This document shows positions 35,817 to 49,105 of a DNA stretch of 60,853 nt, one piece after another. Both the position numbers and the translations under genes were made by a program. The stretch comes from a virus. The stretch lies in IMG/VR virus record IMGVR_UViG_3300034375_004361, positions 1-60,853 of that record. One strand, written 5' to 3'. Under the pieces are notes generated by a model. That model saw only the letters and a program-made list of their open reading frames with translations, was not told where the DNA came from and made no database searches. Position 1 is the first letter of the stretch. Every line of letters begins with the position of its first letter.

Positions 35817-38800
35817 ATGGAGACAAAGGAACAATTCCTTGCACGTTACCAAGCGGCTGTAGATGCTGGCGCATCAGAGGCTGAACTGCAAGCAATGCGT
35901 CGCGAGAGACTCGCGCAAGTCAGACGACAACAAGAAGAAGACGCTCGCCTTCAGCAAGAAGAAGCTGAGCGAAAAAAAAAAGAGCAAGAAGAGGCCGAGC
36001 GTTTACGTTTGGAGCAAGCTTCGGAGGTGGATTTTGGGGAGTCTACCTTGGCGTCTCCAGCTCAAGCGCCAGAACCACGGAGTGGAGATTCGGATTCTCC
36101 TCCCGTAGTATTTAACCCCCACCAGAACTACGAGTTTCAGGGCAGGCAAATTCCAGGCGCCGATGCCCAGATGGTGTACGATTACGGACAGGCCTATGAG
36201 TCAAACCGTAACAAGTGGATTGAGGAGAACTTTGACATCTTCCAATACTATGATTCCAAAGGCTTAGATACATCTAGGCTGGAGCAAATGTCTCAAGACG
36301 AGCTAGAGCAAGAAAGGCTCTCGATGATTGAGGCTCTTGAGTACGGTGTCCAAAACAACACCGAAGATGGCCTGTTGGAGTTTGCCCGAGGATTGCCTGA
36401 TGCACCGCAACCAGACACTTTCGACCAACTGTTTAATATCCCAGCCAGAGCAATCTATTCTGGAAGGGATAAAGGATTTTACGCTCCAAATTTTGAGCCC
36501 GAAGAGGGCTCCACTCTTGAAGAGCGAGAACAGCAATACAAGGATTTCGTTCTAGACCTTGAGAGAAAGTCTGCAAGCAACGAGATATTCTCTTATATCA
36601 ACGGACAGATTGAGCCTGATGCTTCATCGCAATTCCAGGAAACGTTAGGCTCTGACCTCACATTAGAACAAAGGCGTTCTATTGAGCAAAACCTTTACAG
36701 AAACTACGACATTGCCACTGACCTTACTGGTGAGGGATACGTCAACGAGTCTGGTCAAGGATGGCTTGGTGTAACAGACGTGTTTTCCCCTGGATTCAGG
36801 AAGAGTTCCTTGAGCATGTGGGACGGTGTTGCTACCGCAGTGGAGAATGCACTAGGAGGAAACGAGGAGGACCAAACAGCACGGAGAGAACGTATCGAAG
36901 AAATCCGTAAGGAGATGGCGGTGTCCAATAAATCTCTTGAGGAGAAGCTTTTAGAAGGAGATGTCGGAGGATTTTTCTCTGACAGTATTGGTATGCTCGG
37001 GGCTTCAGCCCCTTTGATGGGTGCTGCAATGCTTACTGGTGCGGTAAGTCGTGGTAATGTGCGGGCTGTTGGTAGTGTTACATCCCTCCTAGGTGGGGCA
37101 ACAGTTTACTCAGAAAACAAAGACACTGATTGGTTTAAGAACTTGAGCGATGCTCAAGCACTTGGGTTTGTGGTTAGCAGTGGTGTGGCCGAGGGACTGC
37201 CCGCAGCTGTGGGTTCTCAAATCTTTGCTGGAAAAACTATTGCTGGCGCAATTTTTAAGAACATTGTCACAGAGGGTGCCGAGCAATCATTCAAGCAGTG
37301 GACAAAGGGTCTCTTGATTGGTGCAGGCTTGGGCGCTGTTGAGGAAGGTATCACAGAGGGGGTTACCGCAGGCTGGCAGTATACCTCTAGAATCAATGCT
37401 CAACGCGCAGGGGGCGAAGCTGTCAAGTGGGATTACGACGAGTTCTGGAGGCAAACGCGGGAGGGTGCTCTCGCGGGTATGTCTATGGGTGCTACAATGG
37501 CAAGCTCTGGTGACGTTGCTAGAACTGTAGCAAGCAAGGGAATAGACCTTATCAAAACAACAGCGGTAATCAAGGAGTTGCAGCAGTCGTTTACTCAAGC
37601 GGAGAGCAAGCAAGAAAGAGCTGCAATCGGAAAGAGGATTGTTGAAGCTGTTAGTGCCTTCAGCAAGCTTAGCGAAAAGCGGGTTGCCTTGATGGAGGAG
37701 TTGGAGCAATCTAACCCCGAAGCCTACAAGCGTCTTGTTGAGATTCACAACAGGGTTGAGGTTCTTGCAGAGAAGTACACACGAGCTGACCGTACTGCAA
37801 GAGCAGGAATTACCAAGGAGGTTCGCAAGCTCCTCGACGAAAGGGGAACTATTGAAGGTGAAATGGACGCCATCTTTGAGACAGACGGCAAGGTTGAGTC
37901 TCAACTTCTAGCAAGGGCAGCTCGTAAGGCTGGTAAGCGCAGAAGTAATTATGGTGGTTTGTTTGAAGACGGTAGAGGAAAGGTCACCGTCAGCTCGGAA
38001 AACTTTGGTTCAGTATCTAAGATTCTTTCTAAGCTTACAGAATTTGATGTGAGCCCATTCACTACCGTAACACAGGACGGCAAAGAGCGTCAGGTAACTA
38101 CTGGTGCTCGTATTGTCAAGGGTGTTCAGAACGCCATGAACGTCGTCAAGGCGATGTCTTCTCTTGGAGACTTTCAGTTTGAAATCTACAAGGACTTTGA
38201 CACTATGGTCGAAGACCTCATGGAGATGGAAACGAAAGACCCAGAGACTGGTGAGGTAAGAAAGATGAACCGTGAGGAGGCTGCGAACATGGTTGCTCGT
38301 GGCTTGTACATTGGTCAAGGAAAAGCCAAGCTGTTTCTTCCTGGAATGCTTGAGAACACAGCTTACCACGAGGGGTATCACGACTTCGTCATCCAAAGCC
38401 TTGGTACTCAGGCTGCTGTTGGTCTCGCAAAGAAGCTTTTCCAAGCCCTGCCAGACAACCTGAAGCAACGCTACGGAAACTTCCTCAAGGATTACGGAGA
38501 TGGAACTGGAGACCTTACTGGAACCCTCCGCAATAAGAACGTAAACAAGGGTGTTAAGGTCGAGTCTGCCGATGAGTTCTTGATGGAGTTCTTGGCTGAC
38601 CTCAGTGCTGGTAATATCAGCGTTGACATCCAGAAGAGCGCCATCAGAAAGTTCATGGAGTTCTTGTCACCGCATCTCGGGAGGATTGGGGTGAGAGATA
38701 TCCCATCTGCTAAGATTGAAGACGTTGTATCTGCGGTCAACAGATTGACTTCAGATGTTAGAGAAGGTCGCCGCATCGACTCTATCGAACAGCTCAAAGC

Positions 38801-41800
38801 TGCTACCATCAGAGCCAACTATGCAGGGATTGCTATGAAGGCTGGCATCATTTCAGATGACGATGCAGAAGACGGGTTTGATGAAACCAAGAAGCAGGCC
38901 ATGGAGTCTGGTGGCAACAAGATTTTTGCTACTGTAGTATTTAAGGTAAGCTTGAGCGGCAAGGCTAACTGGCCCGTCAAGAAAGTGTTTGAGAACCAAG
39001 CACACCTCGACAACTTCGTGTCCTACATGGAGCGTAATCGCGGGTGGAAGTTTGATGAGCTGTATGTCCACGAAGGTGAGTACAACTCTGAAACCAGACA
39101 GGCCACAAGACAGAAGTCTGAGCCTATTAGAGAGACGAGAGACGCGACAAGCATTGACATCATTGATGCTTCAGATGCAAAGGGCATCAGCTTCTTCGCT
39201 CGCTCTATGGACAGAGCCATGAAGATGATGGCTGAGCGTGGCATTAACATTGGTTTGCAAGTCACCCAGCTTTCAGAAGAGGACGTACAGAAAATCGTAG
39301 ACGAGGGTGGTACAATCTTCATGACATCAGACTACGGTGCTGGAGGCTACATCACCAAGGAGGGATACGTTGGCGGCATCTTCAAGAACCCTGACTCTGT
39401 ATTCAAGAGAATCACCAAACCCATGTTCGCATGGATGGAAGCTTGGGCGGCAGAGAGAGACCTTGAGATTTTCTTTGATGCATTTGCTACAGAACTTGAG
39501 GACATCTACATCGGACTCGGATATAAGCCAGTAGGAAGAACCTCGTTCAACAGGGAGTACGCTCCAGATGGATGGGATGCAGAGAACTCACCTCTGCTTG
39601 ACGAGCCTGACGTGGTGTTCTTTACCAAGGGTGAGGGTAGCAAGGGCGAAGGCGTTAGATACGACGACTATATGGAGGCCTATGACGTGGTAAGCAATAG
39701 CGTCAAGAAGCCCAAGGCACAATCCTTGCCCAACCCTGAGCTAGAGCAGAACGCTCCCGTTCCATTCCAGCAAGCAGCGAACGTTAGCGAAGCTCAGATG
39801 GCTGAGCGCCGCAAGGAGATTAAGCTGCCAGAGTCTCAGAGACAGACACGTAATGCTGTTGTATTGGACGTGCTCAACAAGTACGAGCTTGGAGAAATCA
39901 CACAGGAGGATTACTTGCGTGCGGTCAGGGAAAACATGCCCATCAAACCATTTGAGACCGTACCAGAAATCCCAACAGTTCTCGACGTCGCTTCTTCGCT
40001 TACCTCAGACAAAGTCACTAAGGGAATCATTGGGGTAAACAAGGAGTTGCCCGACGGATACTACGTGGGCCTTCGTCTCGACATCCCTGCCTACGACACC
40101 TACGACACATGGGTAGTGTCTGTACACCAGGGTAAAAGAGCTGAAGAGAGAACACCATTCTTGGGTGGCAAGGCTATCGGATACGGTCAGACAGCGGTAA
40201 TTACAAACGCAACGTTTGACTCTACACCTATGGCTTCCCTCAACATTGCAAGGGGCAAGGGTAAGCAGACCATTGCTCGCATGTTCGGTGACTACAAGAA
40301 CGAGTCCCCTGAGTCCGTGTACCAGAGAGCTGTCGATATCATGAATGGGTCAGAATACAACTCTGACTACAAGCAGATTGGTAAGATGGAAGGCTGGATT
40401 CAGGTCGGGATGAACCCGTTCCGTCACAGCTGGTTCTACGACAAGCGAGATGGCAGACCTATCGCCGAATCTTCTGAGGTCATTCAAGTGGGTGCCCTCG
40501 TTCTCGCCAAAGATGCAGTCAAAATTTCTGAGTCCGATGAAAGATTCAATGCGAAAAGCCGCGTTAGTGGGCAGACGATTAAGTTCCAAAGGGTTGGCTC
40601 TCAAGGAGTTGACCCCGTTGCGCTCGTCAAGCCACAACAGCTCGGCATATTCAACCTTGAGTTCAGCGCCACTACAACTCAGATGGATGAGTGGCTTGCC
40701 AGTGGTACTGTAAGAACAGAAGACCTGTCCATGCTCGAAGGACGTGCAGTTCTATCTCACTCACCAGATAACATGATGGTTGGCACAGCAAGTGTCGACG
40801 GTCGGGTGATTGCAAAGAACGGTGGTGGTCTCTTCTACTCTGCAAACACGGGAGACGTGTGGGCGGTGGCTGGCGAATCCGCTGGCAAGAACATGGCGGG
40901 TGAGCTCAACAAGTTGCTCAAGGAGTCCCGAGACGGAAAGGCATACATGCTTCTCATCAGTGGGGGCAGGATGAAGCACAGGAGCTCCACCAACGGCGTT
41001 GTCACATTTGCAAACTTGGGACTTGAGCTAGTCAATCAAGGTGTCTTGACGAAGACTGAGTACAAGAATGCCTTGAAGAAAACCATCGCTCTTACTGAAG
41101 AAAGGTCTATTGCCGCTCAGATTAAGGCTAACGAAACGAAGGTCAAGAAAGGAGGTAAGGCTGACCCTCTCAAGAGGGGAACTGCTAAGCTCAGTAGTAT
41201 GGCTGGTAGCACAGAGGCTTTGATGCAGAGGTTCTTCGAGGAGTTTGCCTCAGCAAAGAAGTCAACCTTTGAGCAGAGGAGGGAGTTTGCGGAAACGTTT
41301 GGAACTGTTCTCGGTGAAGTTGTCAAGGCCAAGGCTAGTCAGGACAGCAAGACCAAGGCAGACATCATTGCCAAGTACGAAAAGATGTTTGATGCCAAGC
41401 CGAACATGCGTCAGTTCGGTTCGTTCCTGAAGAACTTCTTCTTCGATTACTTCCAAGAGAAGGTGCTGCAAGGCGTTGAGCCCAATCAGATTTACGGAGC
41501 CATTGAGATTACCTCTGAGGTAAAGCTTGAGAGAGACCCGAACCCTCTTGCTTCATATCCGCTCAAGTTGGTTAACGTTGACACCAACGCTCCAGCTCCG
41601 AAGACTATTGTGTTCAAGACAATGAATGACGCTATCTCCACACTGGAAAGTAGAGATAGAAACATTGAGCAAAACAACAGACTCGGTGTTGGTGACATGA
41701 AGCTTGACGCCAAGGGCAAGCTTTCCTACATCACCAAGCAAGCATTCCAGATGATGGGAGGCATGGGTCAGGCCACTTGGGGTCGGATGTTTGTCAAGGA

Positions 41801-44800
41801 AGCGATTCCTGTAGATGCGATTTCAAGAGAGGTAAAGTCTGTTTCAGAGAGTGTTTCTGTTATCCAAAGTGCTAAGGCTCAGGGCAATCTGATGAAGCTC
41901 ATCGCTGACATGGTTGACCCAGCGGCACCCACTCCAGGCGCGAGAGTGAATAAGCGAGGAAAGCTTATTATTACGCCCTCGAAATCGGAGCTATGGAACA
42001 GAAAAAAGTCGGAGGTAATCGAGCTGCTCACTGCGAGCGGCATGAGCAAAGAGAACGCAGAGGCCTTGTATGCTGCTGCAAAAGCTTACAAGGAAGGAAG
42101 GACAGCGGGAAGGAAGGCTGCAGAAAAAGCTGCTCGTAACACCCTCGGCAAGAGAAACCAAAAGCTTAGCACCGAATCAAAGAGACTCAAGGAAGAACTA
42201 GACAAGCTTAAATCCAAAGCGAAGACAGTTGACGAGTTCTTTGGGTTCGCAGTAAAGCTCATCAACGAGCGTATGAAAGAGTTGGGTACTGTGCCCTTCT
42301 CCAACAAGGACGTTCAAAGGTTGATGAAGATTGCTAGGCAGGCTCACAAAGCTTCTGCTGCAAGGATTAAGAAAGAGGGTGGGGCTGAGGTGATGGACAC
42401 CTTTGTCGAGAAGCTCATCGACATCTTTGACAAGAAGGATTCGCAGAAGGCCATGGCTAATTACTTGGCCTCGGTGTCTGCTGCAAGAAAGCTTCAGCAG
42501 TCTTTGCGTCGTGTGGTCAAGTCACGTAAGAAAGGGGAAGCCCTCAAGTCTACCGCATCCTACAGTTCTGTCATTGGGAAACTTGCTGGCATCAACCCAG
42601 CATTGATTTCTCCTGCAGATATGGGGGACTTCCTCAACACCTTGGCTGCAGCTACAAGCTCTGTGACCAAGGTCAAGACGAAGTTCGACACAGAGGAGCA
42701 GCGCGTTGTTGCCGAAGCTCCGCAGAGAATCTCTGTTGAAGCTCTTGAAGTATTGGCTAACAAGTTCAAGGCCCTTGAAGAGATTGGAAGGAACGCGGCT
42801 ATGGTTGCCAAAGCCAGGGCTGCTGCAGCAAAGAACAACACGAGCTTTGATGAGGAGTATGACAAACTGGTCAAAGCATTCGAGAGGGGCAGACTGAGTG
42901 CAACACGCAAGGCTATCCTTGACTTTATCGACAACAACCCTGCACTCAACCTCGACCCAGCCAACCCAGCTGACGTAGAGTTTGTTTTGGGTAAGCTCGC
43001 AGAAGACAAGGCAGACTTGTTGGAACAGCAAAAGGATGCAATCATCACTGACGTGATTATCCCCAGAATCTTTGGGAACTTGGACAAGCTTCTTGAAGAC
43101 CAGCACATTGCAGAGATATTGGGAATCTTCGCAGAGGATGGGTTTGACCCACAGGCTCTGCGTCAGCGACTCAACAAACTAGACAAGATTACCCTTGCCA
43201 GCCTTGAGTTCAAGCTCGATGACTACATCATGAATGACTCGGTCATGGGTCTCGGATACTTGGCGGCAAGAGTTCGCGGTAAGATTGAGATGGCTGACAA
43301 AATTGATTCTGAGTTGGTAGCGAAAGGTATCGGTGCAGTTGGACAACCATTCTTGGCATTGTTTGATACAGCAGACTCGTTCATCAGACTCATCTTCCCT
43401 CAGGGTAACAAGACCATCGCTGAGATTAGAAACTACATTGGTTTCGCTCAGATGGAGAGAGCCTTTGCTAAGGCGGACATGATTCACGCGATGACTGTAG
43501 AGGCCATCACCGATGAGATGACCCGCATCGAAGAGGAAGGGGGCAGCCTTCGGTCAGTCAAGGACAATGCAATCATGCAAGTGTTCTCTATGGCTAGACA
43601 GATGCCGATGCTTGAGGAGGGGGCTCCAGGTCAGAACGCGGCAGAGTGGTACCTGAACTTGCGCGACGCTATGAAGCGAAGCATCGAGCACTACTCTGAG
43701 CAGAAAGACCTGTACAGCAACGAGGAGATTCAGGAGATGCAGGAGGCTTTCGACTACCTCTTCTCTGAACCTAATCTTGAAGGTTTGATTGACAAGGTTA
43801 CTAGTGAGCGTGCTGACCTTGCAGAGTTTGTCGACTTCATGGTCAACATCCACGGCACACAGCAAGACACCTTCGCCAACTACGTTGAGAGATACCTCGG
43901 TAAAACACTCAAAGTAGAGTCAAACTACACACCCTTCCAGGTTAAGACCAAGGTCCGTAATGACGCTGTCGATGAACAGCTCGCTATGCGTCAAGCTATC
44001 ATGGATAGCATGCGTACCTCTTCATTGGCAAACGCCAAGAAAGTTGCAGGTTCCTCTTACGAGCGTAATCCAAAAAGCATCAGCGGTGGTAACAATATCA
44101 TCGGCTTGAACTTCTTGAAGATTAACGAGCGTACACTTAGAGAGAACACAATCCTTACCAACACCGTTGGCGATGTGATGGCGTTGCAGGGAGCCTTCGC
44201 AAGTGAGGCGATGACTAAGCTTATCAAGGATGACGGTACGAGAAAGCAGCTGCATAACAAGATGATGCAGTACATCACTCAGGATGCGGGGCAAGCACCT
44301 GTTGCTTTCCAGTCAACAATCAGCATCAAGGGAAGAAAGGTGTTTAACCCACTGACCTTGGTTAGGAACGCTGTCGTTGTGAAGGCGTTTGGTTCATTGA
44401 TTATTCAGACCATGAAGCAATCTACTGTTGCTATCAGTGTCATGTCTAACGCAGAAAGGCCAACCGAAACCATCCCGTACTTCATCCAAACGATTGGTGA
44501 ACTCTGGGCTCACGCATTGAGAAACGGATTGTTCAAGGATTCCAAGCTTGCTCTGGAAGCTAACGGTAGATACAAGCTCCTCCAGAACTCTCCCGTGTTC
44601 TCAAGAGACTACGAGGCAGGTAACATCGACCCATACACTGGCAGCATCCAGACAGAAACAAACTGGTTCCAAAGAACCCAGGATAAGTTGACGTCTGTTG
44701 CCCTGCAGAACCTGAAGTCTACAGATAAAGTGGTCGCCGTCTCATCATGGTTTGCCTTCTATGCAGACTACCTCTTGTCCGAGGGTATCGTTGATAGTAT

Positions 44801-46130
44801 CGCCGACATCGACTGGCAAGAGCAGGCAGGTTCTCCTAACCAGGATGCACTTAGCTACGCTGACTCGATGGTTACGAAAGACCAGGCAGCGTCAACCCCA
44901 AGACAGGCAGCTGACGTATACAAGGATGAAGGCGGAGCACTTGCTCCCGCAGTGGCGTTCGTGAGAAACGTTGTCTTGCCCTTCGCAAGATTCGCTGTGA
45001 ACAAGAAGAGAAGCATCTACTCAGACTTCAGAAAGATTACCCAGGGTGATGCCCAAACAAAAAGAGAGGGATACAGATTGATGGCTGGTCACATGGCTGA
45101 ATTGGCTATGTTCCACACAATCGGTCAAGTCCTTATCCCCGCTGTCGCTCAGCTGCTCGCGGGTGAAGACGAAGAAGAGTCGGAGTTCAAGGACAACAAG
45201 TTGCTTAACATCGCAGCCAGTGTGGTCATTGACATGCTTCCCACCCCTCCCGTTGGATACTCTGACGACTTGCTCAAGGAGTTTGCCAACTACGCCATCT
45301 TGTTCAAGCTCCCACAGATGCTGGGTGATGAATCATTGCAGGCCACTCAGGGAGAGAGCGATGCCGAGTTGTTTGAACGCATGAAGCGTACACGTCCGAC
45401 CATCAGAACATACCACCAAGGAGCTGAGCTTACGGCAACATCTGCTATGAGCATGCTTATGGGACCTTACGGACAGTTCATCAACGACGCCGCCAACATT
45501 GTTCAGAACCTGTCCATCACAGATAACAAGGTAATCTCATCCACAGGTAGAGAATACTTCGTTAGACCTGAGGACAAGGACCGAATGGACATCCACCACG
45601 GCGCCAGGTTCCTCCTTGCCCTGAGTCAGATTGCTGGGTTCTCTTCAAAGGAACTCGATGTGATTGTTCGCAGGATGGACGACCTCCCTCGTGAACGTTC
45701 ATTCAACTCTGAAGAAGAACTTGCGGCATACGAAGTAATCATGCAAGGCTTCCGTCAAGAAGATGAGATTGCATCACTGCTTAGTGATGAGGCGGGGACA
45801 GAGAGGATTGCAAGAATCCTTCAGGAGAAGGCGAACATGAGTCCGTTCGAGGCTAGACGTGCAACTACTCGATTCAGAAAGGGTCTCGTCAGAGCTGCTG
45901 CTGAAGAATCCCTCAAGGAATATCCAGGATACTCCAAGCACATCCGAGACATCAGGTCAATCGACAAGGCGGCAAAGGATGCAAAAGACTACTACATCAT
46001 TGTGAATCGTAGAAAAGAACAAATGCCTGCAGCAGAATACGCTGAGTTCAAGTATCTTGCTGATACCTACATGGCTATCCTGAGGCAGGGCATGCTTCAA
46101 GAGAGTTCTTACTACAATATCACACAATGA
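35817..46130 (+). CDS. Giant polyvalent internal virion protein with zinc-metalloprotease motif (3437 aa)
   Basis: By far the largest gene (10.3 kb). Residues ~15-70 are a charged coiled coil. Residues ~385-510 are Gly/Ala-rich and could cross membranes (MLGASAPLMGAAMLTGAVSR). HEGYH at 851-855 is a zinc-protease motif. Residues ~1022-1280 and ~1410-1560 look like modules of phage polyvalent proteins (MNPFRHSWFYDKRDGRPI). Long helical and coiled regions follow (~1750-2400). The C-terminal third (KSTDKVVAVSSWFAFYADYL, near 2970) resembles polyvalent-protein-associated domains. No RNA polymerase DxDGD motif was seen. Probably ejected with the DNA; domain names are from memory. Confidence 0.78.
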   Translation: METKEQFLARYQAAVDAGASEAELQAMRRERLAQVRRQQEEDARLQQEEAERKKKEQEEAERLRLEQASEVDFGESTLASPAQAPEPRSGDSDSPPVVFNPHQNYEFQGRQIPGADAQMVYDYGQAYESNRNKWIEENFDIFQYYDSKGLDTSRLEQMSQDELEQERLSMIEALEYGVQNNTEDGLLEFARGLPDAPQPDTFDQLFNIPARAIYSGRDKGFYAPNFEPEEGSTLEEREQQYKDFVLDLERKSASNEIFSYINGQIEPDASSQFQETLGSDLTLEQRRSIEQNLYRNYDIATDLTGEGYVNESGQGWLGVTDVFSPGFRKSSLSMWDGVATAVENALGGNEEDQTARRERIEEIRKEMAVSNKSLEEKLLEGDVGGFFSDSIGMLGASAPLMGAAMLTGAVSRGNVRAVGSVTSLLGGATVYSENKDTDWFKNLSDAQALGFVVSSGVAEGLPAAVGSQIFAGKTIAGAIFKNIVTEGAEQSFKQWTKGLLIGAGLGAVEEGITEGVTAGWQYTSRINAQRAGGEAVKWDYDEFWRQTREGALAGMSMGATMASSGDVARTVASKGIDLIKTTAVIKELQQSFTQAESKQERAAIGKRIVEAVSAFSKLSEKRVALMEELEQSNPEAYKRLVEIHNRVEVLAEKYTRADRTARAGITKEVRKLLDERGTIEGEMDAIFETDGKVESQLLARAARKAGKRRSNYGGLFEDGRGKVTVSSENFGSVSKILSKLTEFDVSPFTTVTQDGKERQVTTGARIVKGVQNAMNVVKAMSSLGDFQFEIYKDFDTMVEDLMEMETKDPETGEVRKMNREEAANMVARGLYIGQGKAKLFLPGMLENTAYHEGYHDFVIQSLGTQAAVGLAKKLFQALPDNLKQRYGNFLKDYGDGTGDLTGTLRNKNVNKGVKVESADEFLMEFLADLSAGNISVDIQKSAIRKFMEFLSPHLGRIGVRDIPSAKIEDVVSAVNRLTSDVREGRRIDSIEQLKAATIRANYAGIAMKAGIISDDDAEDGFDETKKQAMESGGNKIFATVVFKVSLSGKANWPVKKVFENQAHLDNFVSYMERNRGWKFDELYVHEGEYNSETRQATRQKSEPIRETRDATSIDIIDASDAKGISFFARSMDRAMKMMAERGINIGLQVTQLSEEDVQKIVDEGGTIFMTSDYGAGGYITKEGYVGGIFKNPDSVFKRITKPMFAWMEAWAAERDLEIFFDAFATELEDIYIGLGYKPVGRTSFNREYAPDGWDAENSPLLDEPDVVFFTKGEGSKGEGVRYDDYMEAYDVVSNSVKKPKAQSLPNPELEQNAPVPFQQAANVSEAQMAERRKEIKLPESQRQTRNAVVLDVLNKYELGEITQEDYLRAVRENMPIKPFETVPEIPTVLDVASSLTSDKVTKGIIGVNKELPDGYYVGLRLDIPAYDTYDTWVVSVHQGKRAEERTPFLGGKAIGYGQTAVITNATFDSTPMASLNIARGKGKQTIARMFGDYKNESPESVYQRAVDIMNGSEYNSDYKQIGKMEGWIQVGMNPFRHSWFYDKRDGRPIAESSEVIQVGALVLAKDAVKISESDERFNAKSRVSGQTIKFQRVGSQGVDPVALVKPQQLGIFNLEFSATTTQMDEWLASGTVRTEDLSMLEGRAVLSHSPDNMMVGTASVDGRVIAKNGGGLFYSANTGDVWAVAGESAGKNMAGELNKLLKESRDGKAYMLLISGGRMKHRSSTNGVVTFANLGLELVNQGVLTKTEYKNALKKTIALTEERSIAAQIKANETKVKKGGKADPLKRGTAKLSSMAGSTEALMQRFFEEFASAKKSTFEQRREFAETFGTVLGEVVKAKASQDSKTKADIIAKYEKMFDAKPNMRQFGSFLKNFFFDYFQEKVLQGVEPNQIYGAIEITSEVKLERDPNPLASYPLKLVNVDTNAPAPKTIVFKTMNDAISTLESRDRNIEQNNRLGVGDMKLDAKGKLSYITKQAFQMMGGMGQATWGRMFVKEAIPVDAISREVKSVSESVSVIQSAKAQGNLMKLIADMVDPAAPTPGARVNKRGKLIITPSKSELWNRKKSEVIELLTASGMSKENAEALYAAAKAYKEGRTAGRKAAEKAARNTLGKRNQKLSTESKRLKEELDKLKSKAKTVDEFFGFAVKLINERMKELGTVPFSNKDVQRLMKIARQAHKASAARIKKEGGAEVMDTFVEKLIDIFDKKDSQKAMANYLASVSAARKLQQSLRRVVKSRKKGEALKSTASYSSVIGKLAGINPALISPADMGDFLNTLAAATSSVTKVKTKFDTEEQRVVAEAPQRISVEALEVLANKFKALEEIGRNAAMVAKARAAAAKNNTSFDEEYDKLVKAFERGRLSATRKAILDFIDNNPALNLDPANPADVEFVLGKLAEDKADLLEQQKDAIITDVIIPRIFGNLDKLLEDQHIAEILGIFAEDGFDPQALRQRLNKLDKITLASLEFKLDDYIMNDSVMGLGYLAARVRGKIEMADKIDSELVAKGIGAVGQPFLALFDTADSFIRLIFPQGNKTIAEIRNYIGFAQMERAFAKADMIHAMTVEAITDEMTRIEEEGGSLRSVKDNAIMQVFSMARQMPMLEEGAPGQNAAEWYLNLRDAMKRSIEHYSEQKDLYSNEEIQEMQEAFDYLFSEPNLEGLIDKVTSERADLAEFVDFMVNIHGTQQDTFANYVERYLGKTLKVESNYTPFQVKTKVRNDAVDEQLAMRQAIMDSMRTSSLANAKKVAGSSYERNPKSISGGNNIIGLNFLKINERTLRENTILTNTVGDVMALQGAFASEAMTKLIKDDGTRKQLHNKMMQYITQDAGQAPVAFQSTISIKGRKVFNPLTLVRNAVVVKAFGSLIIQTMKQSTVAISVMSNAERPTETIPYFIQTIGELWAHALRNGLFKDSKLALEANGRYKLLQNSPVFSRDYEAGNIDPYTGSIQTETNWFQRTQDKLTSVALQNLKSTDKVVAVSSWFAFYADYLLSEGIVDSIADIDWQEQAGSPNQDALSYADSMVTKDQAASTPRQAADVYKDEGGALAPAVAFVRNVVLPFARFAVNKKRSIYSDFRKITQGDAQTKREGYRLMAGHMAELAMFHTIGQVLIPAVAQLLAGEDEEESEFKDNKLLNIAASVVIDMLPTPPVGYSDDLLKEFANYAILFKLPQMLGDESLQATQGESDAELFERMKRTRPTIRTYHQGAELTATSAMSMLMGPYGQFINDAANIVQNLSITDNKVISSTGREYFVRPEDKDRMDIHHGARFLLALSQIAGFSSKELDVIVRRMDDLPRERSFNSEEELAAYEVIMQGFRQEDEIASLLSDEAGTERIARILQEKANMSPFEARRATTRFRKGLVRAAAEESLKEYPGYSKHIRDIRSIDKAAKDAKDYYIIVNRRKEQMPAAEYAEFKYLADTYMAILRQGMLQESSYYNITQ

Positions 46131-46657
46131 AATTAGAAGTTTTAAGAATAAGCAGTCAAGAGGATTCTACTTCGGGAGTTCTCTTTGACGTCACTGGAAA
46201 CAGAGAGTTCCTGTGTTACACACTAGAAGATGAACAAAGAGATACAAAGATTGCTGGAGAGACTCGCGTACCCGCTGGAACTTATCGAATCACTTATCGA
46301 ACAGAGGGTGGCTTCCATAAGAAGTACTCCCACCGCTTCCAAGATATTCATCGGGGTATGCTATGGGTTCGTGATGTTCCTGGCTTTGAGTACATACTTA
46401 TTCATTGCGGTAATACTGACGAGCATACTGCTGGTTGCCTCCTGGTTGGAGAGACTCAGTCGAGCAATGTTAAAACTGCTGACGGGTTTATTGGAAAAAG
46501 CACACAAGCCTACTTCGACTTCTATCCCAGAGTTGCTGAAGCTCTTGACCGAGGCGAAGAAGTAATCATTACATATATCGACTACGATGGAAAACAAAAA
46601 GATAAAAGAAACAAAGCTCGGTTCCTGGCTAAAACAAAAAGCCCCCGCCGTTCTTGA
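46127..46657 (+). CDS. DUF5675 family protein, lysis region (176 aa)
   Basis: Residues ~1-150 match DUF5675: LCYTLEDEQRDTKIAGETRV, AGTYRITYRTEGGFHKKYSH, GMLWVRDVPGFEYILIHCGN and HTAGCLLVGE. The family is frequent in phages of Bacteroidota next to holins and is thought to act on the cell wall; the chemistry is not established. The fixed His (ILIHCGN) and Cys (AGCLLVG) positions recall L,D-transpeptidase-like sites. The start overlaps the giant gene as ATGA. A 111-codon ORF lies in another frame inside it, and its 3' end overlaps the holin candidate by 71 nt. Confidence 0.85.
   Translation: MKLEVLRISSQEDSTSGVLFDVTGNREFLCYTLEDEQRDTKIAGETRVPAGTYRITYRTEGGFHKKYSHRFQDIHRGMLWVRDVPGFEYILIHCGNTDEHTAGCLLVGETQSSNVKTADGFIGKSTQAYFDFYPRVAEALDRGEEVIITYIDYDGKQKDKRNKARFLAKTKSPRRS
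46230..46565 (+). CDS. Embedded overlapping ORF: membrane protein, candidate holin/antiholin (111 aa)
   Basis: Entirely inside the DUF5675 gene in a different forward frame (offset +1). The translation is unusually protein-like: an amphipathic helix (MNKEIQRLLERLAYPLELIE), a hydrophobic stretch of about 34 residues from IFIGVCYGFVMFL through ILTSILLVASWL that can form two membrane segments, then a helical tail (LLKLLTEAKK). It ends 21 nt before the holin-candidate start, like a normal operon neighbour. Embedded lysis genes are known in other phages. Expression is not proved by sequence. Confidence 0.55.
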   Translation: MNKEIQRLLERLAYPLELIESLIEQRVASIRSTPTASKIFIGVCYGFVMFLALSTYLFIAVILTSILLVASWLERLSRAMLKLLTGLLEKAHKPTSTSIPELLKLLTEAKK

Positions 46658-47027
46658 CGTAGCTGGTGACATGCTGCCCGACCAGGGTATGCTTGGTGTG
46701 GTCAAGAACCTGCTCGACAAAGAGCCAGGAGTTGACCCATCCGAGGCCAAGGCTATGGTAGATGCAGAGATTGCGTACCAGAACAACGTGACTGAGAGAT
46801 GGAAGGCAGACATGGGCAGCGATGTCAAGCTGGCAAAGCTTATCAGGCCCGTCACTTTGATTGCTTTAATGAGCATGTTTATGGCGACCATGGTGGCTGA
46901 CAGCATGGACAACTGGGCCTTCAACGTAAAAGACAGTTACGTATCTTTGTTAGAGATTCTAATGTTGACTTCTTTCGGTGCATACTTTGCGGGCCGCACC
47001 ATTGAAAAAGCTCGACCAAAAAAATAA
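46587..47027 (+). CDS. Holin candidate, two membrane segments (146 aa)
   Basis: Residues 1-90 are a charged cytoplasmic part (WLKQKAPAVLDVAGDMLPDQ). Two hydrophobic segments follow: LIRPVTLIALMSMFMATMV and SLLEILMLTSFGAYFAG, ending in a basic tail (RTIEKARPKK). The pattern R-P before a TM and a final AYFAGRTIEK resembles the three-TM/GTA-type holin families seen in many phages. It would permeabilise the membrane at lysis. It overlaps the end of the DUF5675 frame. Confidence 0.65.
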   Translation: MENKKIKETKLGSWLKQKAPAVLDVAGDMLPDQGMLGVVKNLLDKEPGVDPSEAKAMVDAEIAYQNNVTERWKADMGSDVKLAKLIRPVTLIALMSMFMATMVADSMDNWAFNVKDSYVSLLEILMLTSFGAYFAGRTIEKARPKK

Positions 47028-48465: not shown

Positions 48466-48741
48466 ATGGCAAAGGTTGGCGAGAACACTGAGGTAACTCT
48501 AGATTTGAAAACTCTAGGGATGGTAGCCGCAGGGGTTGGGAGCATGGTCGCCATGTGGTTCTCGCTTCAAGCGGACATCGCTGAGGCCAAGGAGTTGCCA
48601 GCTCCTCATGCTCCTGAGATTACTCGAATGGAGTTTGACATGAAGGACCAGCTCGTTCGACAGACAATCATGAGCACACAGGAGGATGTCACCGAGATGA
48701 AGGAGGACATCAAGATGATTAAAGAAAAACTTTATGAGTAA
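48466..48741 (+). CDS. Membrane-anchored coiled-coil protein, spanin-like candidate (91 aa)
   Basis: Residues ~12-35 form one hydrophobic segment (LGMVAAGVGSMVAMWFSL), followed by a Pro-containing linker (ELPAPHAP) and a coiled coil (EDVTEMKEDIKMIKEKL). An inner-membrane anchor with a periplasmic coil fits an i-spanin or a holin-assisting protein, consistent with the lysis region. No outer-membrane lipoprotein partner with a lipobox was found next to it. Confidence 0.6.
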   Translation: MAKVGENTEVTLDLKTLGMVAAGVGSMVAMWFSLQADIAEAKELPAPHAPEITRMEFDMKDQLVRQTIMSTQEDVTEMKEDIKMIKEKLYE

Positions 48742-49105
48742 GGTTGTTCTTCTTCTGCTCTTCTTACCGCTATCTGCATTGTCTCAAAACTTTGTAACGC
48801 TTGATGACCTTGACTCTAAAAAGTCAAAGGGTATTACGGTGATTGAGTTCTGGGCTGCCTGGAACAAAGGCAATCAAGTTGAGTTCTTAAAAGAACTAAA
48901 AGACTGCAGGTCTTATCGACTATCTATTGATGACAACCCTGTTGCTGTATCGCAGTACACAGTTAGTAGCGTGCCCACATTGCTTGTCTTTGATAACGGG
49001 ACTGAGGTCGCTCGATTCTCTCCGACAATCATGATGCAGCTTTCTGCAACAAGACAAGAAATTCAACAAGAGATAGACCAGATTATTCTAAAAAAGTTTC
49101 AATGA
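48734..49105 (+). CDS. Exported thioredoxin-fold protein lacking the active-site cysteines (123 aa)
   Basis: A signal peptide (MSKVVLLLLFLPLSALSQ) is followed by a thioredoxin-like fold: strand ITVIEFWAAW at 34-43, helix, strand RLSIDD, and VSSVPTLLVFDNGTEV with the cis-Pro at 81. Where thioredoxin has W-C-x-x-C this protein has W43-N-K-G-N47, so both catalytic cysteines are replaced by Asn. It cannot do dithiol exchange and may be a binding or chaperone-like derivative. It overlaps both neighbours by a few bases. Confidence 0.72.
   Translation: MSKVVLLLLFLPLSALSQNFVTLDDLDSKKSKGITVIEFWAAWNKGNQVEFLKELKDCRSYRLSIDDNPVAVSQYTVSSVPTLLVFDNGTEVARFSPTIMMQLSATRQEIQQEIDQIILKKFQ

Follow-up and report, generated by a model that had tools for sequence, protein, structure and literature searches.

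The window analysed here, a 60,853-nucleotide stretch of viral DNA (IMG/VR record IMGVR_UViG_3300034375_004361, positions 1 to 60,853), carries a DUF5675 gene that houses a second open reading frame (ORF) and runs into a holin-family gene (Table 1). The DUF5675 gene matches its Pfam family with E=2.3e-26 and 92.3 bits, above the gathering cut-off of 26.7, and the AlphaFold2 model of its protein has a pLDDT of 84. As the initial annotation had it, the embedded ORF lies wholly within the DUF5675 gene in another forward frame, here the +1 frame, and ends 21 nt ahead of the holin-family gene, which is in turn overlapped for 71 nt by the 3' end of the DUF5675 gene. The holin-family gene also gives a weak, sub-threshold Pfam match to GTA_holin_3TM (E=0.02).

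Table 1. Features of the DUF5675 locus in the window
Feature	Coordinates	Strand	Remarks
DUF5675 gene, 176 aa	46127..46657	+	carries the overlap; motif ILIHCGN-TDEHTAGCLLVG; Pfam PF18925, PHROG 1501
Putative embedded +1-frame gene, 111 aa, ATG start	46230..46565	+	stop depletion; hydrophobicity above null; synonymous changes suppressed in the window clade
Regions of the embedded protein			positively charged N-terminal helix; hydrophobic core of ~36 residues; basic/helical C-terminal tail
Conserved hydrophobic core of the embedded protein	46362..46460	+	alignment columns 96-128, aa 45-77
Start region of the embedded ORF	46206..46232	+	ACACTAGAAG-ATG; A at -3; weakly structured
Downstream holin-family gene, 146 aa	46587..47027	+	PHROG 3427 'holin', E=2.4e-21
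Antisense ORF, 187 aa	46361-46924	antisense	rejected as the selected frame

Length and hydrophobicity of the embedded ORF

It had been proposed that an open frame of this length is no rarity by chance but that its organised hydrophobicity is rare, and both parts of this claim hold. Under the codon usage of the window genome an open +1 frame this long has P of about 0.08-0.09, and the same genome contains five other embedded sense ORFs of at least 100 aa. The best 35-residue Kyte-Doolittle mean of the ORF is 2.25, whereas the maximum among 79 other embedded ORFs is 1.56, and it exceeds synonymous-shuffle nulls in two runs (P=0.002 and P=0.001). Part of this hydrophobicity is supplied by the conserved main-frame motif FEYILIHCGNTDEHTAGCLLVG, the null mean being already 1.1. 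The clear pair of membrane segments described earlier was not recovered: the hydrophobic stretch is unbroken over ~36 residues and AlphaFold2 returns a single long helix (with a pTM of only 0.35), so that a hairpin is unproven. In size and shape the product resembles holins (about 60-150 aa, at least one membrane segment, a charged tail), and the charge profile across the group places a basic tail after the core.

Maintenance of the +1 frame among DUF5675 homologues

Synonymous-codon nulls, in which shuffling retains the main protein and each gene's own codons, were set against the frame in 155 distinct DUF5675 homologues. The short-form family was reduced to 49 representatives, and the long-form subfamily served as a comparison. 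The homologue alignment put forward as a check on the embedded gene finds no +1 stops in the closest relatives (L001-L005), all of which retain the 111-codon frame with its ATG, and the frame proves far more widespread than the window. Across the ORF region the short-form representatives contain 60 +1 stops where 153.7 are expected (sd 7.5), and 23 against 91 in columns 88-130. The membrane core is open in 37 of the 49 (5.2 expected), and 35 have an ATG-initiated ORF of at least 55 aa spanning it (4.8 expected). The signal is confined to the ORF: no depletion of +1 stops is seen in the short-form DUF5675 N-terminus (151 observed, 115 expected), none of +2 stops in the short form (523 and 477), and none comparable in the +1 frame of the long form (24 and 28.6), while control genes at the same loci show no bias (observed/expected 1.00-1.01).

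These departures persist at saturation. Among representatives less than 70% identical, whose synonymous codons agree no better than shuffled ones (0.425 vs 0.419), there are 37 +1 stops against 65.2 expected, and +1 hydropathy is 1.52 against a null of 1.06; in the saturated-site subset the core is open in 11-12 of 16-18, with 1.6-2.0 expected. The +1 core is thus more hydrophobic than the main frame dictates, although some of the strongly open clades (L016, L018, L030, L031, L141) lack core hydropathy above the null and contain Glu, Thr and Gln. Open frames group together on the tree, requiring 12 changes against 19.5 when shuffled (0/500); the tree itself has modest support and comes from a short search.

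Suppression of synonymous variation within the overlap, the other expectation of the initial annotation, was found in the window clade but not in every group. In that clade codon identity reaches 0.68 in the hydrophobic core, compared with 0.44 in the upstream gene and 0.50 in the DUF5675 N-terminus, and the core combines the strongest +1 stop avoidance with the strongest synonymous suppression. In a relative with a broken +1 frame (L010) codon identity drops to a baseline of 0.29-0.48. Other 111-codon lineages likewise show suppression, whereas the large group with a frame of ~88 codons ('open88') shows no extra synonymous conservation.

Taken together, the stop depletion, the confinement of the signal to the ORF, the excess hydrophobicity and the synonymous suppression in the window clade argue that the embedded frame is, with high probability, a real gene overprinted on DUF5675. 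Maintenance of the frame and its hydrophobicity are evident in the aligned sequences; the product is probably a membrane protein, and would be expected to insert into the membrane.

Several readings of the open frame dispense with a +1 gene or with its own start. The +1 hydrophobicity could follow mechanically from the conserved motif YILIHCGNTDEHTAGCLLVG and its T-ending codons, the openness being due to chance, as an initial reading of the +1 translations suggested. A hydrophobic +1 stretch does survive in some relatives that have +1 stops, null hydropathy already stands at 1.1-1.6, and openness in the window by itself has P of about 0.08. That reading was overturned by the synonymous-codon nulls: in saturated lineages both openness (37/49 vs 5.2) and hydropathy (1.52 vs 1.06) lie above the null values, and neither is seen in the long form, which shares the motif; it is largely refuted and very unlikely. 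More improbable still is that the codon pattern reflects RNA structure, codon-pair bias or another nucleotide constraint, or that selection acts on the antisense ORF. Stops are likewise scarce in the in-register antisense frame (87 vs 140), and the window does contain the long antisense ORF, but contexts that would make antisense stops only show little depletion (Leu TA|Y, 42 vs 53; Ser TCA, 15 vs 20), whereas those specific to the +1 frame are strongly depleted: Val/Ile NTA|R contexts number 27 against 68 expected (NTA|Y, 98 vs 107), and Leu/Val TG|A contexts 2 against 19 (TG|nonA, 85 vs 62). Because avoidance is limited to contexts creating +1 stops, the antisense ORF does not explain the codon pattern and is largely refuted as the selected frame. 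Nor is RNA structure supported as its cause, the core folding no more stably than shuffles (z -0.92 to +0.74), and neighbouring genes show no such bias.

The start site bears on the idea that the +1 frame is made as a frameshift fusion to the DUF5675 N-terminus. An ATG occupies the start column in 39 of 49 representatives against 33.8 expected (z=1.8), no more than the main-frame Asp codon gives, and the first ATG sits at differing columns among relatives, as such a fusion would allow. It is nonetheless highly improbable, given the number of ATG-started ORFs of at least 55 aa over the core (35/49 vs 4.8) and the enrichment of +1 stops directly before the ATG column. The embedded ATG is preceded by no Shine-Dalgarno sequence, as is true of other genes of the window phage, and the fold of 46200-46260 has z = 0.83. 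For the overprinted gene, internal initiation at the ATG (at downstream ATGs in some relatives) on an mRNA shared with DUF5675 is the probable mode of expression.

The question of a lysis role

Searches of Pfam and PHROG with 23 members of the embedded protein gave no convincing match and no holin family; a match to ExoD (E=0.0028) was below its cut-off and was set aside. No stand-alone homologues were found in IMG/VR outside DUF5675 loci or in annotated phages. That the embedded protein is a holin or antiholin, as first suggested, is plausible and evenly poised, but no holin family match accompanies it and its start is no better conserved than the main-frame null predicts.

The description of DUF5675 as a lysis gene holds in part. 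In crAss-like phages its homologues are annotated as L,D-carboxypeptidase/transpeptidase and adjoin lysis or holin genes, whereas in Vibrio and Pseudomonas phages DUF5675 lies between portal and scaffold genes. A PDB fold search with the DUF5675 model yielded no match at E<=0.001, and so none to solved peptidoglycan enzymes; a profile search for fold relatives was not significant (E=0.75), and no match to the YkuD (L,D-transpeptidase) family was found in the window's own record. In many relatives the neighbours are structural genes, including a beta-rich upstream protein, and small transmembrane genes adjoin DUF5675 in four (L156, L041, L028, L174); a PHROG scan of neighbour genes in ten relatives gave no matches. 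The idea that the long-form clade replaces the embedded gene with a small membrane gene upstream was considered and rejected, the upstream gene (51-56 aa) being Cys-rich and not a membrane protein; a clean complementary distribution with separate holins was therefore not seen. Both the embedded gene and a separate holin or small transmembrane gene occur in L156 and in the window clade.

A membrane protein serving some purpose other than lysis, such as superinfection exclusion, a host-membrane function or a small virion-associated protein, would fit the coding evidence (stop depletion, the saturated subset, open cores, codon contexts) equally well. The structural settings of DUF5675, among them the portal/scaffold position, and the separate holin-family gene already present in the window clade speak for it, but the carrier gene's crAss-like homologues are annotated as lysis enzymes and the embedded gene directly precedes the holin-family gene in the window clade; on balance it is rather unlikely. 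The explanation preferred with some confidence is a +1 gene overprinted on DUF5675 that encodes a small membrane protein, most likely with a lysis role, this role on its own being a finely balanced suggestion. The +1 gene would be younger than the DUF5675 gene around it, having been born in a single large branch of phages, most of them environmental (IMG/VR), and then lost in several sub-branches. At its N-terminal end the protein would be amphipathic and carry positive charge; a single long membrane segment, or two packed closely together, would follow, and then a basic tail. It would most likely help to lyse the host, either as a holin or by modulating one, and be expressed together with the DUF5675 peptidoglycan enzyme and, in the window clade, the separate PHROG-3427 holin.

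Known nested genes and the significance of the overlap

A precedent is hol187, which accounts in PMC6023083, PMC4553209 and PMC5810103 describe as embedded out of frame in ply187 of Staphylococcus aureus phage 187 (Loessner et al. 1999, J Bacteriol 181:4452); PMC6023083 also records a later argument that Ply187 is a virion-associated lysin and that the true endolysin lies elsewhere. The embedding and the out-of-frame position recur here, but the enzyme family differs from DUF5675, whose hydrolase activity is only putative, and the precedent comes from one phage, whereas the DUF5675 frame is conserved over dozens of lineages, as judged from sequences. In the Rz/Rz1 spanins of lambda, too, one lysis gene sits entirely inside another, in its +1 frame; the inner gene, Rz1, encodes an outer-membrane lipoprotein and the outer one an inner-membrane spanin (PMC6116005, PMC6139136). 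In contrast, the protein predicted here is hydrophobic and helical, lies inside a DUF5675 gene and has no lipobox seen in its 111-aa sequence. The PHROG 3427/GTA_holin_3TM-like gene resembles it as a small membrane protein of the same cluster, but is a separate gene of no detectable common family, and both coexist in the window clade. The crAss-like lysis cassette (for example in MT774378 and NC_055884) similarly holds a DUF5675 homologue, an L,D-carboxypeptidase/transpeptidase, with a lysis regulatory protein or holin; there, however, the holin and lysis-regulatory genes are separate and upstream, and the three crAss-like DUF5675 genes examined have 11-20 stops in the +1 frame.

Tailed phages have few fully nested out-of-frame genes (Rz1; hol187); annotation pipelines overlook them and they are usually single cases, whereas selection signatures of the embedded gene appear in about 37 divergent representatives. 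The long-form DUF5675, crAss-like and myophage homologues, which carry the same enzyme without the embedded gene, serve as negative-control lineages, making the locus a natural experiment on de novo gene birth by overprinting. The locus also gives a straightforward genetic handle on whether one stretch of bases can encode both a phage's cell-wall enzyme and a membrane-permeabilising partner. That a widespread, hitherto unannotated family of overprinted small membrane proteins was born de novo in the DUF5675 gene of many environmental phages and acts as a hidden holin or holin modulator is a tentative proposal, leaning slightly to the doubtful side. On that proposal, enzyme and membrane release factor would occupy the same DNA and be co-inherited as one indivisible lysis unit.

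The nested locus and its homologues

An ATG-started frame capable of encoding a small membrane protein lies inside the DUF5675 gene of the window, a viral sequence of 60,853 bases. The initial annotation of this locus is borne out in its factual statements (ORF coordinates, +1 nesting, a 21-nt gap between the end of the embedded ORF and the start of the holin-family gene, and a 71-nt overlap of that gene with DUF5675). It had also stated that an open frame of such length is not rare by chance, whereas its hydrophobicity is. In the window genome alone the length is indeed only mildly unusual (P about 0.08-0.09), but the hydrophobicity is exceptional for this genome, the best 35-residue mean being 2.25 against a maximum of 1.56 in 79 other embedded ORFs of at least 80 aa. 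The C-terminal ~1000 codons of the giant upstream gene are conserved in the homologous loci L001, L002, L004, L005, L010 and L011.

Features at and around the DUF5675 gene
Feature	Positions	Strand	Remarks
Giant upstream gene	35817-46130		3437 aa; overlaps DUF5675 start (ATGA)
DUF5675 gene	46127-46657	+	176 aa; PF18925, E=2.3e-26
Embedded ORF	46230-46565	+	111 codons, ATG start, +1 frame, wholly within DUF5675 gene
Antisense ORF	46361-46924	-	187 aa; overlaps DUF5675 and holin gene
Holin-family gene	46587-47027	+	PHROG 3427 'holin' match, E=2.4e-21
Thioredoxin-family gene	48734-49105		PF00085, E=5e-6; same cluster

Scans of IMG/VR (three) and of GTDB genomes (one) recovered relocatable DUF5675 genes at 211 loci (155 distinct). 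The homologues take two forms, short (about 140-178 aa) and long (189-202 aa). Many short-form genes have, about 3-14 nt upstream, a gene for a beta-rich protein of 120-140 aa (MATLTPTLSLxSTDxSSDxLNFSV...; L016:2590-2997, L018:774-1160, L030:678-1052, L117:2590-2997, L107:2627-2986 and others), with no PHROG match for the three of these proteins that were scanned. In four long-form loci (L064:655-822, L013:2856-3008, L050:2856-3008, L021:2856-3017) a Cys-rich protein of 51-56 aa (CSNCKHYxNNYCIKFxEQVAPxGWCAVWE) is encoded directly upstream, overlapping the DUF5675 start; its sequence gives the impression of a miniature high-potential iron-sulfur protein.

Selection on the +1 frame

The first impression was that the +1 hydrophobic stretch is a mere shadow of the conserved main-frame motif YILIHCGNTDEHTAGCLLVG, because the stretch survives in some relatives with +1 stops. 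As this reading would have settled the matter, null models were built that keep the main protein exactly: synonymous codons were redrawn from the codon usage of each locus (null 1; 56 representatives, <85% identity) or permuted inside each DUF5675 gene (null 2). Both overturned it. Counted over 88 codons beginning at the ATG column, short-form genes of the 56-representative set contain 88 +1 stops where 225.6 are expected; the +2 frame shows no depletion (568 vs 519), and the ratio of observed to expected +1 stops in other genes of the same loci is 1.01. Under null 2 the ORF region holds 60 stops vs 153.7 expected (sd 7.5). Depletion in the short form is confined to the ORF, with an excess of stops in the DUF5675 N-terminus (151 vs 115) and past the ORF (102 vs 83), and is strongest in the hydrophobic core, alignment columns 88-130 (23 vs 91). 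Long-form genes show none (24 vs 28.6, null 2).

The initial annotation proposed looking for a +1 frame kept open in relatives, and this is what is seen: the core, columns 96-128 (window 46362-46460), stays open in 37 of the 49 short-form representatives (5.2 expected; no more than 11 in any of 300 shuffles), and in 35 of the 49 (4.8 expected) an ORF of 55 aa or more that starts with ATG runs across it. The signal survives removal of shared ancestry. In the control for this (INDEPENDENCE), the set was cut to representatives sharing <70% amino-acid identity, among which synonymous codons agree no more than after shuffling (0.425 vs 0.419); +1 stops number 37 vs 65.2 (sd 4.8), core hydropathy is 1.52 vs 1.06 (sd 0.10), and the core is open in 11-12 of 16-18 vs 1.6-2.0 expected (P<=0.002).

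Stops are likewise depleted in the in-register antisense frame (87 vs 140), where the window has an ORF of its own, and codon contexts were therefore analysed apart. Contexts that create a stop only in +1 are strongly shunned (Val/Ile NTA followed by a purine, 27 vs 68; Leu/Val TG followed by A, 2 vs 19). No such avoidance affects these codons where the context is harmless (98 vs 107; 85 vs 62), and counts of contexts that make a stop only in antisense come close to expectation (42 vs 53; 15 vs 20). The frame under selection is +1, and avoidance of its stops is taken to explain the antisense openness over DUF5675 as a side effect. RNA folding here is unremarkable, giving no sign of structure as the cause.

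For a further expectation, suppressed synonymous change in the overlap, the picture is mixed. Codon identity at conserved amino acids, taken over the window's closest relatives and L011, stands at 0.44 for the giant upstream gene; within DUF5675 it is 0.50 for the N-terminus, 0.50 for the part of the ORF outside the core and 0.68 for the core itself. The core of the relative L010, which carries a +1 stop, reaches only 0.29-0.48 to the others. Suppression recurs in other 111-codon lineages, but in a group with ORFs of roughly 88 codons turnover is normal despite an open, hydrophobic +1 frame, one possibility being selection on hydrophobic character instead of exact sequence. The DUF5675 gene at L012:3-419 is close to the window's as far as the YILIHCGN motif, past which similarity drops abruptly; despite this mosaic joint within the overlap, its +1 frame is open for 86 codons.

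The embedded protein and its start

In the embedded protein an amphipathic, positively charged N-terminus precedes some 36 hydrophobic residues, and the tail is basic. AlphaFold2 draws helices throughout (pLDDT 82, pTM 0.35), and the supposed pair of membrane segments appears as one continuous helix; there may be one membrane pass or two. In the open clades L016, L018, L030, L031 and L141 the core is less clean, with Glu or Gln, and its hydropathy is not above the null. Pfam and PHROG searches returned no fitting family, and no stand-alone homologue was found in IMG/VR or annotated phages.

The embedded ATG overlies a codon that specifies a conserved Asp in DUF5675; conservation of the ATG does not exceed main-frame constraint (39 vs 33.8 expected). 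Several relatives have a stop after the ATG column and a downstream ATG (columns 70-100) that opens the core ORF. Genes of the window phage generally lack a Shine-Dalgarno sequence, as in Bacteroidetes, in which A at -3 and low structure are important for starts (PMC6847099). Since both features are present at the embedded ATG (A at -3, weakly structured surroundings), internal initiation there is plausible.

Function, origin and precedents

A role in lysis, as holin or modulator, has about an even chance, the main rival being another membrane role without lysis. The hidden holin or antiholin of the initial annotation draws support from the PHROG-3427 holin immediately downstream in the window clade, and from crAss-like phages, in which DUF5675 homologues are annotated as L,D-carboxypeptidase/transpeptidase and adjoin lysis-regulatory or holin genes; several relatives also have small membrane genes next to DUF5675. 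Against it, in two annotated phages, Pseudomonas phage Cygsa01 (L214) and Vibrio phage K469 (L215), DUF5675 has a portal gene on one side and scaffold/protease genes on the other, which casts doubt on its always being a lysis enzyme, and sequence and fold searches tied it to no solved peptidoglycan enzyme.

In a tree of 63 DUF5675 proteins, of modest support and with long outgroup branches, the open state clusters, needing 12 changes against 19.5 with shuffled states (0/500 as low). In the distant homologues read, which come from crAss-like, Vibrio, Pseudomonas and Curvibacter phages, 4-20 stops interrupt the +1 frame. The simplest history would be overprinting inside one large DUF5675 branch, followed by losses that include nearly all of the long form.

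Nested lysis genes have precedents. According to papers citing Loessner 1999 (PMC6023083, PMC4553209, PMC5810103), hol187 is nested out of frame in ply187 of S. aureus phage 187, where one review argues that Ply187 is a virion-associated lysin, not the endolysin (PMC6023083); the other classic +1 case, like the ORF in DUF5675, is lambda Rz1 within Rz (PMC6116005). The literature searched held no report of a DUF5675/+1 overlap and named DUF5675 merely as annotation. As a nested out-of-frame gene, the ORF in DUF5675 has unusually broad comparative support.
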